Assembly (NCBI GenBank): GCA_002011035.2
Contig: MTLY02000002.1
Location: 186,001-250,000, forward strand
Source: Candidatus Hecatella orcuttiae
GTDB taxonomy: Archaea > Thermoproteota > Bathyarchaeia > Hecatellales > Hecatellaceae
Length of the DNA: 64,000 nucleotides
Direction: 5' to 3'
In this document: piece after piece, positions 18,135-23,946 of the stretch
Layout: each line of letters begins with the position of its first letter
How positions within the stretch are numbered: position 1 is the first letter of the stretch
Translations under genes and position numbers: made by a program
Notes under the pieces: generated by a model
Databases searched by the model: none
What the model was told of the DNA's origin: nothing
What the model saw: the letters and a program-made list of their open reading frames with translations, nothing else

Positions 18135-19151
18135 TTACGCTCCTAATCTGTTTATTAGGCTTGATTTTTCGCGGTTCACAGTTTCTCTGACCAGAGCGGC
18201 TATCGCCCTGTGGTCTCTAGGATTGAATCCCGCTGTCTCCAGCTTCTTTAAGCTTTCCATCATGCCTTTGAGGTGGGGTTCTGGCAGTTTTTCGAGGAGG
18301 AAAAGATTCTCCTTCAGATAGCTTCCAACGTCTCGAAGGCTTATCTGCCTGATTTTTTTCTCCTCACAGAGAACAGCTATGACCACAGGGTTGGTTTCTT
18401 TGTTCGCAACGTCTTCCTCCAGCTTTCTGAAGTCATTGGCTGCCATCTGCATCAAAACCGCGGAGCAAAGCCAGAATTCAGAAAGATAGTCTTGGATTTC
18501 TTCGCTCTCTCCTCCGCTCTCCATGTAGACAATTCTAGCTATATACGCACCCATCAAGCCGAGTTTTTTCTCTAAAAGTTTAACTGCGCTTTCCCAGCTT
18601 GGAAATTTCTCCCTTAACCAGTCGACATCATCTTGCAAAAGGTGGAGGCGGACTGCCTTGTCTTCTTCTTGACCTGCCTCCAGCCGGGTTCTGCCTTCCT
18701 GGTATAGGTTTAACGATGAAGAGTGATACTGCCTGAACCTTTCATAGACAAGGCTTTTTAAACGCTGAGAGACCTTTGCTAAAAAATTGTAAGTTCTCCG
18801 CCTAGCTTCAAATTCCTCAGCATAAAGCTTATGTTTCAAGCTGAGAACTTCTGGGCGAAACTCGTCGTCCATGGTGTCCAGCACATCCGACTCGAAGGCT
18901 GTGAGTCGGAGGGATGCTGCCAACCGAAGGGACGGCTTCCGGAACGCTGCGTCAACGTATCCTCTGTTTCCTTTCCACACCACAAATGATTGGATAGTTG
19001 CCGCCTTCGACAGTCTGGTATGATAGTTTAGTAGAAAGCTGAGTTCTTCCGGGAAATTTTTAAAATGTTCCTTCAAAGTCTTTTTCATCATGAAGCTGGC
19101 AAGCTGGTCTGAAAAGGAGTAAAGCAAACCCAGATACGCCTTAGGCATCAT
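18135..19151 (-). CDS. Unknown helical protein, possibly a divergent isoprenoid-synthase fold
   Basis: A 338-residue protein predicted to be almost wholly helical, without signal peptide or obvious membrane span. I do not recognise it by overall similarity. Two regions recall trans-prenyltransferases. AASLRLTAFESDVLDTMDDE (residues ~78-97) resembles the helix carrying the first aspartate-rich motif. LMQMAANDFRKLEED (233-247), followed by ETNPVVIAVL, resembles the second (QxxDDxxDxxED...PVxxAL). Neither motif is canonical. The gene is 29 bases downstream of a divergent cis-prenyltransferase-like gene, which raises the plausibility of an isoprenoid link. Alternatives are a DNA-binding or scaffold protein of unrelated all-alpha fold. 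Confidence 0.4.
   Translation of the reverse strand: MMPKAYLGLLYSFSDQLASFMMKKTLKEHFKNFPEELSFLLNYHTRLSKAATIQSFVVWKGNRGYVDAAFRKPSLRLAASLRLTAFESDVLDTMDDEFRPEVLSLKHKLYAEEFEARRRTYNFLAKVSQRLKSLVYERFRQYHSSSLNLYQEGRTRLEAGQEEDKAVRLHLLQDDVDWLREKFPSWESAVKLLEKKLGLMGAYIARIVYMESGGESEEIQDYLSEFWLCSAVLMQMAANDFRKLEEDVANKETNPVVIAVLCEEKKIRQISLRDVGSYLKENLFLLEKLPEPHLKGMMESLKKLETAGFNPRDHRAIAALVRETVNREKSSLINRLGA
18142..18170 (+). terminator. Possible terminator after tupC
   Basis: CCTAAT (18142-18147) and ATTAGG (18154-18159) form a 6-bp stem with a 6-base loop, followed by a five-T run on the plus strand. It lies within the 3' end of the convergent minus-strand gene. Weak but well placed. Confidence 0.35.
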
Positions 19152-19180
19152 CGGTGAACAACTTAGCCTCCGCTACCGGC

Positions 19181-20110
19181 TTAGAATTCATAGATTTCCG
19201 GCCCAAAGATCCCTGCGATTATAACTCTCTTTCTGAGGATATGAGGCGTTGGAGGGGGGGCGGTAATTTTACCCTCTGGTGTGAAAACTCTAAATGAAAG
19301 AGACCCAAGTTTTTCGTGAACGAAATACATTTCAGCCTCCCTCTTCGACCGAACAAGAGCCCTTTCGCCGGAGCTGTATTTTTTAAGGTACTGGGTTGCC
19401 TCGTTGAGCATCATGCTTCTCAGCGCCAAGGCTACTAGGTAGATGAGTTGAGGGTCAGTCCAAGTTCGGCTGGAGGAGCCCTGTTGCACGTAGACAAAGC
19501 TGCTGTAGTCGGATTTCGAGGGGGGAAGCATCATGCCTGTGGGACATTGAAGTTTGGTATGCCTCACTGTCACGTTTACATCTGGAAGAAGTTGGAAGAG
19601 GGCTTCGTTTTTGACAGCCCAGTCTAGGGAGTAATTGATGAGGAAATGGGCAGTGAAAGTTGAATTGTTTTTCGTTTTCTCCTCCAACTTCTTGAGGTCT
19701 TGGGCGAAATGACCTGAAACTCCCTCAGGCTCTATACTGGAGTCTAGGTCTCCTAAAAACCTAAGCCTCACATTGAATTTGGCTGCGTAGTCGTCGTAGA
19801 TTACGTAAAGCCGTTTGAGGGCGTCGTAGATCTGGGGATAATTCTCCCTCAACCTATGTCTTTCCTCGATCACATTGATGTAACAGGCGGGACTGCCGAG
19901 GATTCTGAGAATGTGAAACAATCTTAAGGAGAAAATCCCCCCATCCACATAGGCTTCCGAACCCTCTAGGTCCGTGGAAGTCCTCATGCCGTCGGTCATC
20001 TCGTAAATGACCATCTTCCTGACCTTCTCCAAGGGATGCTCTATTCTGAGAGCCTCGCAGGCAGCGAGAAAAGTGTCGAGTACCTCTTCGCCTTCGGGAA
20101 GTTTAAACAA
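19181..20110 (-). CDS. Divergent cis-prenyltransferase-like protein (UppS/NgBR superfamily candidate)
   Basis: A 309-residue protein with TTG start. Several blocks line up in order with undecaprenyl-diphosphate synthase: MTDGMR (residues 38-43) with UppS MDGNxR, including the catalytic Asp; NVRLRFLGD (113-121) with NVRLRxIGD; EEKTKNNSTFTAHFLINY (143-160) with the TxxNTGLTLNIAxNYGG region; and VTVRH (180-184) with the LxIRTGG arginine. The second arginine of RTGGxxRxS and the later Mg-binding glutamate seem to be missing (CPTGMM, SSFVYV). Thus it may be catalytically altered, or act as a non-catalytic partner as NgBR does in heteromeric enzymes. The C-terminal ~80 residues are not recognised. 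Confidence 0.45.
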   Translation of the reverse strand: MFKLPEGEEVLDTFLAACEALRIEHPLEKVRKMVIYEMTDGMRTSTDLEGSEAYVDGGIFSLRLFHILRILGSPACYINVIEERHRLRENYPQIYDALKRLYVIYDDYAAKFNVRLRFLGDLDSSIEPEGVSGHFAQDLKKLEEKTKNNSTFTAHFLINYSLDWAVKNEALFQLLPDVNVTVRHTKLQCPTGMMLPPSKSDYSSFVYVQQGSSSRTWTDPQLIYLVALALRSMMLNEATQYLKKYSSGERALVRSKREAEMYFVHEKLGSLSFRVFTPEGKITAPPPTPHILRKRVIIAGIFGPEIYEF

Positions 20111-20219
20111 CCTTATCTACAGCTCCAAGATAGGGTTGCTAAAAGTTTAAGCTAACCTTTTTGTCTTAAGCTTTTCTCCGACTCGAAAACGTGAACGAGG
20201 GTCTCAGGGAAATTCGCAG

Positions 20220-21278
20220 CTATGGGTGTATGGCCACCTTGATGGCCTTGCCTTGAGCCATGGATTTTAAGCCTTCTTCCACCCGGCTGAGCGGCATCTC
20301 CTGGGTGATAAATTCCTTTGCTTTGATGGCGCCGGAAGATATCAGACTTAAAGCTTTTTCGACACAGTGAGGTGTATGGTGGAAGACGCCCTTTATTGTA
20401 AGCTCCCCGTAGTGAACAGTCCCCGCGTCGAATGGTACAGTGCTTCCAGAAGGGCAGCCTCCGAAGAGGATGATTCGGCCTCCTTTCCCAGTCATCTGCA
20501 CGGCTTTTCTCCATGTTTCCGGAGAGCCCACGGCTTCGATGACAACTTCCGCTCCTCTTCCGCCCGTAAGTTTTCTCACTTCTTCCACCTGATCCACTTT
20601 CGACGCGTCGACTAAGCAGTCGGCTCCCAGTTTACGGGCGTTCTCAAGCCTTAAATTCGACAGGTCTGAAACTATAACCTCCCTCGCACCTTTTATCTTC
20701 GCCAGTTGCAGGTGCAGGAGGCCTATGGGCCCCGCCCCTATGATGGCCACCCGCTCGCCTAGGCCGATGTCGGCAAGTTCCACACCGTGGACTACGCAGG
20801 CTAAGGGCTCCAGCAAGGCGGCTTCCTCAAAGGAAACATGGCGGGGCACTTCGTACATGTTTTGCTGAACTATTCTGGCTGGGATTTTGATGTACTCCGC
20901 GTAGGCTCCTGGAATGGAGAAGCCGATTACATTTTCACTTAGGTTTTCGCAGAGGTTAGGTTTTCCCCTTTTACAGTAGTAGCAAGTGTTGCAGGGGGCT
21001 GTGTTGGCAGCGACGACCCTCATCCCCTTCCTGAAGCCTACAACTTCCCCGCCTATCTTGACTATGCGGCCGGAAAATTCATGTCCAATTATCATGGGAG
21101 GCTTAGTCAGGGGATGGCCAACCTTGTACATTTTCAGGTCGGTGCCGCAGGTTAAGACGACTTCAACCTTAACTAGAACATCCCGTGGGCCGATTTTAGG
21201 TATGTCCACTGTTTCCAGCTTTATGTCGCCTGGCTTATGGTATACCGCTGCTTTCATCCTACCATCCATTTTCATCAC
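20220..21278 (-). CDS. Zinc-dependent medium-chain dehydrogenase (first of a pair)
   Basis: A 352-residue alcohol/polyol dehydrogenase. Catalytic zinc ligands are CGTD and GHEFSG; the structural zinc is bound by the four-cysteine loop CNTCYYCKRGKPNLC. The NAD(P) Rossmann motif is IIGAGPIGLLHLQLAK. The cofactor loop VSDLSNLRLENA, with Asp after the second strand, favours NAD over NADP. An internal ATG (MKAAVYHKPGD) is the likely true start, seven codons in. It lies 26 bases after a related dehydrogenase and ~110 bases before the cis-prenyltransferase-like gene. Threonine, sorbitol or prenol substrates are all possible; family alone does not decide. Confidence 0.88.
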   Translation of the reverse strand: MMKMDGRMKAAVYHKPGDIKLETVDIPKIGPRDVLVKVEVVLTCGTDLKMYKVGHPLTKPPMIIGHEFSGRIVKIGGEVVGFRKGMRVVAANTAPCNTCYYCKRGKPNLCENLSENVIGFSIPGAYAEYIKIPARIVQQNMYEVPRHVSFEEAALLEPLACVVHGVELADIGLGERVAIIGAGPIGLLHLQLAKIKGAREVIVSDLSNLRLENARKLGADCLVDASKVDQVEEVRKLTGGRGAEVVIEAVGSPETWRKAVQMTGKGGRIILFGGCPSGSTVPFDAGTVHYGELTIKGVFHHTPHCVEKALSLISSGAIKAKEFITQEMPLSRVEEGLKSMAQGKAIKVAIHP

Positions 21279-21304
21279 TCCACTCGCTGGTGCCGGGTCC
21301 TCCT

Positions 21305-22336
21305 TTAAGGGGTGATGATTATTTTCAGCGATTCTTTTCCTTCAGCAGCCAACTTTAAAGCATCAGCAACCTGGTCCAGCTTAAAAGAGTGGGTTATCAG
21401 TCCGCTCAACTCAAGCCGTTTGGTTTCCATCAGCCTTAAAGCCATATTTGTTTCCAGCTCCGTCGTCGAGTAGCTGGGAATGAGGGATATTTCCTGGATG
21501 AAAATTTTGCTAACATCATAGGAGAACACGGCTCCCTTCAGGGGAGCTCCGAAAAGAACCACGGTTCCACCTTTCCTCACCGAATCCAAACCCTGCCTGA
21601 TCGCTTCAATGCTTCCAGTAGCAACTATGACAGCGTCCACGCCTAAGCCGTGGGTGAGATTCTTCACAGCGAGAACAGGGTCTTCGCGCAGAGAGTTGAA
21701 GACAGCTTCAGCCCCAAATTTCTCAGCCGCCGCTAACCTAAAATCGACGAGGTCGCTGACGAAAATTCTACCTACTCCTAACAACTTCAGAAGCTTGGCG
21801 AAGATCAGCCCTGCAGGTCCGGCGCCGATGATCATCACGTCATCACCGGGTTGAAGACTTAGTTTCTTCGCACCTCTTATGCAACAGCCTACAGGCTCTA
21901 TGAGGGTGGCTTCTTGGAAAGAGATACCCCGCGGAATTTTAAGGACGGCGCCTCTCTTCACATTGGCGGCGGGGACTTTGAAATACTCTGCAAATCCTCC
22001 GGGGTCTAAGTTTGTGCGCGGAAATTCTTCGCACATCGTGTAGTCTCCATGCCTACAATAGTGGCATTTGTAGCAAGGGACATGATGATGAGTGAAAACT
22101 CTGTCGCCCACTCTCAGTCCCTCTACCCCTTCACCAACTTCCACAACTTCGCCCACTACTTCATGGCCTAAAACAGGGGGGGTGAGAAAGTAACCAGCAG
22201 TTTTCTCCACATCCGTTCCACAGACCCCACAAGCTTTCATCTTCACCAGCACTTCTCCACGCCCTATCTTGGGGATGGGGACATCCTCAACTCTTACGTC
22301 GCTGGGACCCCTCAGAAAAGCGGCTTTCATCTTCAC
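21305..22336 (-). CDS. Zinc-dependent medium-chain dehydrogenase (second of a pair)
   Basis: A 343-residue member of the same superfamily as its downstream neighbour, with catalytic zinc residues in CGVCGTDVEK and GHEVVGEV. Its structural zinc cysteines (CYKCHYCRHGDYTMC) are complete, the Rossmann motif is IIGAGPAGLIFAKLLK, and SDLVDFRLAAA holds the NAD-preferring Asp. The two paralogues are clearly diverged rather than a recent copy. PSYSTTELETN near residue 285 is characteristic of a subgroup of thermophile zinc dehydrogenases. First gene of the four-gene minus-strand run; its upstream spacer of 236 bases should hold the promoter. Confidence 0.88.
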   Translation of the reverse strand: MKMKAAFLRGPSDVRVEDVPIPKIGRGEVLVKMKACGVCGTDVEKTAGYFLTPPVLGHEVVGEVVEVGEGVEGLRVGDRVFTHHHVPCYKCHYCRHGDYTMCEEFPRTNLDPGGFAEYFKVPAANVKRGAVLKIPRGISFQEATLIEPVGCCIRGAKKLSLQPGDDVMIIGAGPAGLIFAKLLKLLGVGRIFVSDLVDFRLAAAEKFGAEAVFNSLREDPVLAVKNLTHGLGVDAVIVATGSIEAIRQGLDSVRKGGTVVLFGAPLKGAVFSYDVSKIFIQEISLIPSYSTTELETNMALRLMETKRLELSGLITHSFKLDQVADALKLAAEGKESLKIIITP

Positions 22337-22572: not shown

Positions 22573-23946
22573 TTGAATATTGAGGTGTTGAAAATCACGG
22601 ACGTTGTCCTTATCTATCCATACTTCGCCCCTAAGATGGATAGGTCCATTTTTAGAGTTCCTCCCCTCGGTCTGGGCTACATTGCCTCCTACATAAGGCG
22701 CAACGGTTTTTCTGTAAAAATCGTAGATTGCACATTTCTGAGCTGGAAAAAAGCTGTTGACTCGGTGAGGCGGCTGAAACCATCCATCATCGGGATTTAC
22801 TCCATGTTTTCCATGGCGGAGCCTGCGACTCGGTTTGCTCAAGTCCTGAGGGGTGATTGCGCGCTTCTGGTCGCAGGGGGGCCTCTACCAAGCGTGAGGC
22901 CGGAGATTTTTTTGGAGAATTTTGACTTAGCAGTCAAAGGGGAAGGGGAGCAAACGTTTCTGGATATCGTGAAATGTTTTACGGAAGGAGGAGACCTTTC
23001 ACGTATCCCTGGCATTTTCCACAGCAAGAGTGAAGAAATAGCATTCACGGGGAACAGAAAGCCCTTTAAAAACTTGGACACCCTTCCCTTTCCGGCGCGA
23101 GACCTCTTTCCCAACAGGGATTACATCCTTTATTGGCGGAAGCGAGGTCACCCTCCTAAAACATCGATAATTACAACCCGGGGTTGCCCTTTCAGCTGCG
23201 ATTTTTGCAGCAACGCTGTCTTCGGTGTATCCTACCGGGAGAGAACAGCGAAGAATGTAGTCGAAGAAGTGGAAGATGCTTTGAAATTTGGATATGATGG
23301 CATATTTTTTGTCGACGATTGTTTTACTCTCAACAGGAAGAGGGTGGTGGAGATTTGCGATGAGATCCTAGCTAGAGACCTCGACTTTGAATGGGAATGC
23401 CTCTCTAGGGTTGATAACATAGACCGCGAGCTGGCGGGAAAGATGAAGCGGGCAGGATGCCGCAGGATTTTCTTCGGTATAGAGTCGGGAAATGAGAGAA
23501 CCCTGAGAATCATGGCGAAACACTTCTCCTTGGAGGAGGCTAGGAGAACCGTGGAGAACGTGGCTTCAGCCGGAATAAAGGCAGGAGCATTCTTCATCAT
23601 CGGCTACCCTGGGGAGACGGATGAAAGCATCCTAGATACCATCAATTTTTCAACCTCACTCCCTCTGGAATATCTTTCTTTCACACTGCCCTATCCTATT
23701 CCCGGCACAGGGTTGTATGAAAAAGTCAAGGATAGAATGACCCTCACAGACTGGGTCAGGCCGAAACTGGGATTGATCGACCATTCGCTGATCTACAAGT
23801 CGCATTTCTCCAGCGCTAAACTGAAATTTGCCATCCTAAAAGGCACTGTTCAATTTCAAATCAAGAAGCGGCTGGGTAGGTTCTCATGGCCCGTTGAGAA
23901 GCCCTTTAAAAAAATAACCAACTATGTTTTCAAAAAGTTGGTGTAA
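22573..23946 (+). CDS. Cobalamin-binding-domain radical SAM protein
   Basis: A 457-residue protein. Residues 1-135 form a B12-binding-like Rossmann domain (PPLGLGYIASYIRRNG, then VAGGPLPS), without the base-off DxHxxG motif, as in many class B radical SAM methylases. RGCPFSCDFCSN near residue 200 is the 4Fe-4S/SAM site, and the TIM barrel includes FFGIESGNERTLRIM and FFIIGYPGETDE. A C-terminal region with basic residues follows. Class B enzymes methylate unactivated carbons or rearrange skeletons of lipids, hopanoids or natural products. The gene diverges from the dehydrogenase/prenyltransferase-like run across a 236-base spacer, so a lipid-related role is conceivable but unproven. Confidence 0.85.
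   Translation: MNIEVLKITDVVLIYPYFAPKMDRSIFRVPPLGLGYIASYIRRNGFSVKIVDCTFLSWKKAVDSVRRLKPSIIGIYSMFSMAEPATRFAQVLRGDCALLVAGGPLPSVRPEIFLENFDLAVKGEGEQTFLDIVKCFTEGGDLSRIPGIFHSKSEEIAFTGNRKPFKNLDTLPFPARDLFPNRDYILYWRKRGHPPKTSIITTRGCPFSCDFCSNAVFGVSYRERTAKNVVEEVEDALKFGYDGIFFVDDCFTLNRKRVVEICDEILARDLDFEWECLSRVDNIDRELAGKMKRAGCRRIFFGIESGNERTLRIMAKHFSLEEARRTVENVASAGIKAGAFFIIGYPGETDESILDTINFSTSLPLEYLSFTLPYPIPGTGLYEKVKDRMTLTDWVRPKLGLIDHSLIYKSHFSSAKLKFAILKGTVQFQIKKRLGRFSWPVEKPFKKITNYVFKKLV

Follow-up and report, generated by a model that had tools for sequence, protein, structure and literature searches.

A divergent cis-prenyltransferase-fold protein of Bathyarchaeia as a candidate non-orthologous geranylgeranylglyceryl phosphate synthase

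The window analysed here is a stretch of 64,000 nucleotides from Candidatus Hecatella orcuttiae (contig MTLY02000002.1), which corresponds to C2:186001-250000 of genome G000, a 1.75-Mb assembly in three contigs that is 97% complete. Four genes lie one after another on the minus strand of the window, and the third of them, encoding a 309-aa protein that resembles cis-prenyltransferases (CPTs), is the subject of this report. The open reading frames (ORFs) occupy positions 21305-22336, 20220-21278, 19181-20110 (with a TTG start) and 18135-19151 and are separated by 26, 109 and 29 bases, just as a first-pass annotation made from the sequence had placed them, and by codon usage the annotated frame of all four looks coding, the gene of a helical protein at the end included. 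The same annotation had recognized the first two products as medium-chain zinc dehydrogenases (DH1 and DH2), which was confirmed by their matches to PF08240 and PF00107 (E 1e-24 to 1e-32), and had noticed a block-wise likeness to CPTs in the third. The features are the following:

19181..20110, minus strand: divergent CPT-fold protein of 309 aa, candidate non-orthologous geranylgeranylglyceryl phosphate (GGGP) synthase, as judged from the model, the fold match, the orthologues and complementarity with the known GGGP synthase (GGGPS)
19973..20011, minus strand: motif VIYEMTDGMRTST, residues 34-46 of that protein, counterpart of 'MDGNRRW' of UppS in the alignments
18135..19151, minus strand: orphan protein of 338 aa, predicted to be all-helical and soluble, 29 bases past the CPT gene (ORF, codon bias)
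20220..21278, minus strand: DH2, medium-chain zinc dehydrogenase, threonine/polyol-dehydrogenase-like (PF00107 and PF08240; TIGR00692 at 243 bits, below cut-off)
21305..22336, minus strand: DH1, medium-chain zinc dehydrogenase, paired with DH2 in many Bathyarchaeia (PF08240 and PF00107)

The likeness of the 309-aa protein to CPTs is real, weak by sequence but strong by structure. Its score against PF01255 is 16.8 bits, under the Pfam cut-off of 27, and against the NCBIfam uppS model 17.2 bits, under the cut-off of 109.6. The AlphaFold model, for which an alignment of the nine-member family of this protein served as input, reached a pLDDT of 75.8 and a pTM of 0.80, and its residues 1-245 were superposed by VIA-align on human DHDDS (6w2l) with Z 20.2 over 219 residues at 2.6 Å, which is far higher than the Z of 7-8 obtained when a model matches nothing clearly. 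From the model, Foldseek likewise led to UppS, i.e., to 6szg with E 8e-9. The CPT fold can thus be regarded as settled. A canonical UppS is encoded in the same genome about 22 kb from the divergent gene (C2:183196-183873, 260 bits), and of the nine genomes that carry the divergent CPT, eight have an ordinary UppS too; since the two co-occur in this way, the divergent CPT is not the housekeeping polyprenol synthase, and the first-pass annotation was right on this point.

Profile-profile alignment of the divergent family with canonical UppS was weak, so that residues were mapped with the help of the fold and of MAFFT alignments consistent with the topology, with the nine sequences aligned to 21 canonical UppS of Bathyarchaeia; a genafpair variant was set aside because its C-terminal half was misaligned. 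Mapped sites are given in the numbering of E. coli UppS. The motif VIYEMTDGMRTST is invariant in the nine sequences except for E/D at residue 37, and Asp40, the counterpart of catalytic Asp26 of E. coli UppS, is found in all of them, i.e., the family keeps both the CPT fold and the catalytic Asp of the DGN motif. Arg183 is kept as well and corresponds to Arg194. Substituted positions include Asn28 (Met), Arg30 (Thr) and His43 (Tyr, variable), and the site for isopentenyl diphosphate (IPP) and Mg2+ is changed in all nine, where, as mapped on a remote alignment, Asn74 is replaced by Glu and Glu213 by Ser, and Arg200 and the C-terminal RXG motif are lost. The RXG motif of CPTs is in contact with Mg2+ and with the acceptor diphosphate (PMC8131916). 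Judged from sequence, this residue pattern fits a donor site in which an allylic diphosphate would still be bound, together with an acceptor site that has lost its adaptation to IPP.

Relatives of the divergent CPT are few. Among 256 Bathyarchaeia genomes it was found in only eight others, with 55-58% identity, and a phylum-wide sample of 398 genomes yielded no further ones. A scan of 84,980 species with the family alignment returned seven relatives, all in metagenome-assembled genomes (MAGs) of Bathyarchaeota or Nitrososphaerota, while the single CPT sequence gave no match in the same contig scan; in the viral contigs searched, there were no relatives of the CPT or of the helical protein. Weak CPT-like matches in G189, G188 and G150 proved to be diaminopimelate-decarboxylase-like proteins, hit by chance (those in G192 and G043 were not inspected).

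In each of the eight other genomes the next gene encodes a UbiA-family prenyltransferase, which overlaps the CPT gene or lies within about a dozen bases of it, and the dehydrogenases are absent from this place. The partner UbiA matches PF01040 at 102 and 123 bits in the two proteins tested (E 4e-29 and 2e-35; cut-off 34.2), and the best NCBIfam match of the three tested is GGGP geranylgeranyltransferase, i.e., digeranylgeranylglyceryl phosphate (DGGGP) synthase (NF009521, 189-212 bits). The equivalog cut-off of that model, 296, is not reached, and standard bathyarchaeal DGGGP synthase (DGGGPS) misses these cut-offs too. Both Asp-rich motifs, NDxxDxxxD and DxxDxxxD, are kept in all eight partners, which in a tree form a clade apart from the standard DGGGPS of Bathyarchaeia lacking the CPT. 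Within family f6, the CPTs of three lineages are 59-61% identical to each other, about as low as to the copy in the window, whereas UppS of the same genome pairs shows 75-82%; these figures suggest repeated acquisition or long separate histories of the CPT. As a side observation, the CPT-UbiA pair of G155 is directly followed by a gene resembling Snf7/ESCRT-III (PF03357, E 6e-6, slightly below the cut-off), and a homologue of that gene comes after the pair in G129 (L022:2164-2814 and L024:7857-8627).

A CPT-UbiA pair could be a lipid-core cassette, the genomes with it might therefore lack the standard enzymes, and GGGPS was searched for with this in mind. Among 38 genomes, PF01884 (GGGPS) was found in none of the nine with the CPT versus 28 of the 29 without it (E < 1e-50), which corresponds to a Fisher p of 6e-8, uncorrected for relatedness. 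Both states are met inside a single family and in each of two genera (G000 against G001; G107, G111 and G129 against G109 and G119; G155 and G157 against G035), and since they interleave in this way, ancestry alone is a poor explanation. Completeness of the nine CPT genomes is 95% or more in seven and 90-93% in two. Weak PF01884 matches in G000 and G131 were rejected as GGGPS, being HisA and a Fae-Hps-type enzyme; left uninspected was a further one in G107, of 20 bits, which lies in a 415-aa frame and covers the same C-terminal portion of the profile. Homologues of GGGPS that represent a second, very divergent type were also observed, in G028 (L148:1501-2181) and G014 (L142), about 25-28% identical to other bathyarchaeal GGGPS; the G028 match carries one internal TAG as reported.

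The exchange can also be seen in gene order. After a syntenic block of the glycyl-tRNA synthetase gene (glyS), two small genes and a sugar nucleotidyltransferase gene, standard DGGGPS is located in the CPT-less G119, G109 and G035, and the CPT-UbiA pair in G157 and G129. In the sister genome G001, the genes of glycerol-1-phosphate dehydrogenase (G1PDH), GGGPS and geranylgeranyl reductase (GGR) are together, with that of DGGGPS adjoining, and many genomes without the CPT have GGGPS flanked by an Elf1-like gene on one side and the gene of the DNA polymerase D large subunit (DP2) on the other, names that come from reading the sequences. The genome of the window has no PF01884 match over the cut-off and no standard DGGGPS; its four UbiA proteins are a heme O synthase, a MenA-like protein, a decaprenyl-phosphate phosphoribosyltransferase-like protein and one weakly DGGGPS-like.

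Taken together, we consider it fairly probable that the 309-aa protein is a non-orthologous GGGP synthase of CPT fold, transferring geranylgeranyl to glycerol-1-phosphate. With a shade more reserve we propose that this second, independently evolved GGGPS displaced the TIM-barrel enzyme in several lineages of Bathyarchaeia, usually along with its own UbiA-type DGGGPS. The idea of the first-pass annotation that the third gene points to lipid biosynthesis would thereby hold. In the mechanism that we infer, geranylgeranyl diphosphate (GGPP) would be bound in the retained donor site, with Asp40 acting together with Mg2+ and with Arg183, and sn-glycerol-1-phosphate (G1P) would fill the acceptor site and, having only one phosphate, would need fewer contacts there than IPP with its diphosphate. 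The Glu at the former Asn74 position might serve as a base for the 3-hydroxyl of G1P, to which, and not to IPP, the C20 chain would be transferred, giving the first ether bond of archaeal lipids. The product, GGGP, would then receive its second chain from the UbiA-type DGGGP synthase, whose gene, paired with the CPT gene in eight genomes, would be located elsewhere in the genome of the window. That a CPT can act on such an acceptor has a precedent in MM_0014 of Methanosarcina mazei, which is able to O-prenylate glycerol in vitro (PMC8131916).

Several points weigh against this proposal. The O-prenylation by MM_0014 is deemed unlikely to be physiological by the authors who described it (PMC8131916). 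The CPT gene of the window does not adjoin any UbiA gene, and the best DGGGPS candidate of that genome is weak (88 bits) and located on another contig. Residue mapping past Arg183 rests on a remote alignment and is less certain. PF01884 was sought in 38 genomes, these are draft genomes, and the nine positives are non-independent events. Finally, G017, which is 98% complete, has neither a PF01884 GGGPS nor the divergent CPT, and so the first ether bond may, at least once, be made in some other way, unless this genome has a gap.

An alternative that we regard as unlikely, though deserving attention, is that the adjacent UbiA uses as donor a special prenyl diphosphate, cis-configured or irregular, which the CPT-like protein supplies; GGGPS would then have been lost as a by-product of a different lipid chemistry, or because an unrelated gene had replaced it. 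The tight CPT-UbiA linkage would be well accounted for, and irregular (head-to-middle) CPTs also alter the Asn28 position, which is His in lavandulyl diphosphate synthase (PMC7839719). However, this would leave unexplained why GGGPS is missing in all nine genomes and why the CPT occurs without an adjacent UbiA in G000, and the loss of IPP-site residues speaks against it. It is still less probable that the protein is a non-catalytic or regulatory prenyltransferase partner, for which NgBR/Nus1 provides a precedent among CPT-fold subunits, and that another protein supplies the GGGPS function. Several catalytic-site residues do differ, but Asp40 and the long motif are invariant in nine sequences, unlike in a decayed partner, and the distribution of the CPT is complementary to that of GGGPS. 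That GGGPS is absent by chance, owing to incompleteness or phylogeny and without relation to the CPT, seems very improbable: all nine are draft MAGs, the correlation lacks a phylogenetic correction and G017 is without GGGPS though also without CPT, but the completeness of the nine and the interleaving of CPT-positive and CPT-negative genomes argue otherwise.

Just as little credence can be given to the view of the first-pass annotation that the four genes encode a single prenol/terpenoid pathway, in which two enzymes would be isoprenoid-synthase-like and two would be prenol dehydrogenases, since beyond their common strand and short gaps in G000 the unit falls apart in relatives, where the dehydrogenase pair is found without CPT, the CPT without dehydrogenases in eight genomes and the helical gene in neither setting; the scattering that was named there as evidence against the idea thus concerns the four-gene unit and not the CPT gene itself. 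Several Bathyarchaeia without CPT have DH1 next to DH2, and in G012 and G025 the pair follows the genes for E1-alpha, E1-beta and E2 of a pyruvate/acetoin-type 2-oxoacid dehydrogenase, a gene context which suggests a role in diol/acetoin-type or polyol oxidation. These loci are L073:6423-11777 (G012) and L074:1498-6964 (G025), and another pair, with E2 nearby, lies at L072:710-6368 (G021). In G028, DH1 adjoins a tungstate-type permease (TupB-like) gene, whose product is 57% identical to the permease beside the cluster of the window, and since the same type of permease is met there, the CPT and helical genes look inserted into an existing neighbourhood. DH1 and DH2 are probably not part of the lipid function and best regarded as neighbours.

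The orphan helical gene sits, in G000, where other genomes carry the UbiA gene. Its product had been described as helical with an echo of trans-prenyltransferases: helical it is by prediction, while the echo found no support in sequence families. There was no relevant match in Pfam, NCBIfam or PDB and no relative in the 256 Bathyarchaeia genomes, where one weak match, in G079, turned out to be a cysteinyl-tRNA synthetase; the single-sequence AlphaFold model (pLDDT 39, pTM 0.22) is too poor to be used. A B12-binding radical SAM gene is read divergently from the cluster (22573-23946, plus strand), remains below every NCBIfam cut-off (nearest BchE, HpnJ and PhpK, at 150-160 bits), and no link between it and the CPT was found.

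In the papers searched, nothing was found on a CPT-type GGGPS, on any replacement of GGGPS or on an archaeal CPT-UbiA linkage. GGGPS, with which archaea commit to the synthesis of membrane lipids, is a TIM barrel in every structure solved, and its specificity for G1P underlies the 'lipid divide' (PMC9385802). If the proposed function is true, the first-step enzyme of archaeal lipids can be reinvented or swapped with another fold. Lipid capacity would then have to be deduced differently from archaeal genomes, and a new enzyme for building archaeal lipids would become available.

Compared with known systems, the 309-aa family shares with cis-prenyltransferases (UppS, DHDDS/NgBR; PF01255) the fold over about 220 residues, an invariant Asp-Gly at the end of beta-strand 1 and the conserved Arg matching Arg194, but differs in remaining under the Pfam and NCBIfam cut-offs, in the change of DGNRRW to DGMRTS and in a C-terminal extension of about 60 residues that ends with GPEIYEF. 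Rv3378c, the tuberculosinyl transferase of Mycobacterium tuberculosis, appears among the top Foldseek rows and is likewise a CPT-fold enzyme with an acceptor other than IPP, although donor and acceptor differ and the sequence match is not significant. MM_0014 has in common with the 309-aa protein the archaeal CPT fold and the missing RXG Arg (PMC8131916), whereas its acceptors are IPP and dimethylallyl diphosphate (DMAPP) and no link to GGGPS loss is reported for it. The UbiA partner of the eight genomes shares the Asp-rich motifs of UbiA-type DGGGP synthase (PF01040), from whose standard bathyarchaeal form it is separated as a clade. With GGGP synthase (PF01884) itself, the 309-aa protein would share the reaction, the position in the pathway and the pairing with DGGGP synthase, whereas the two are unrelated in fold (TIM barrel in GGGPS) and sequence, and complementary in their genomic distribution.

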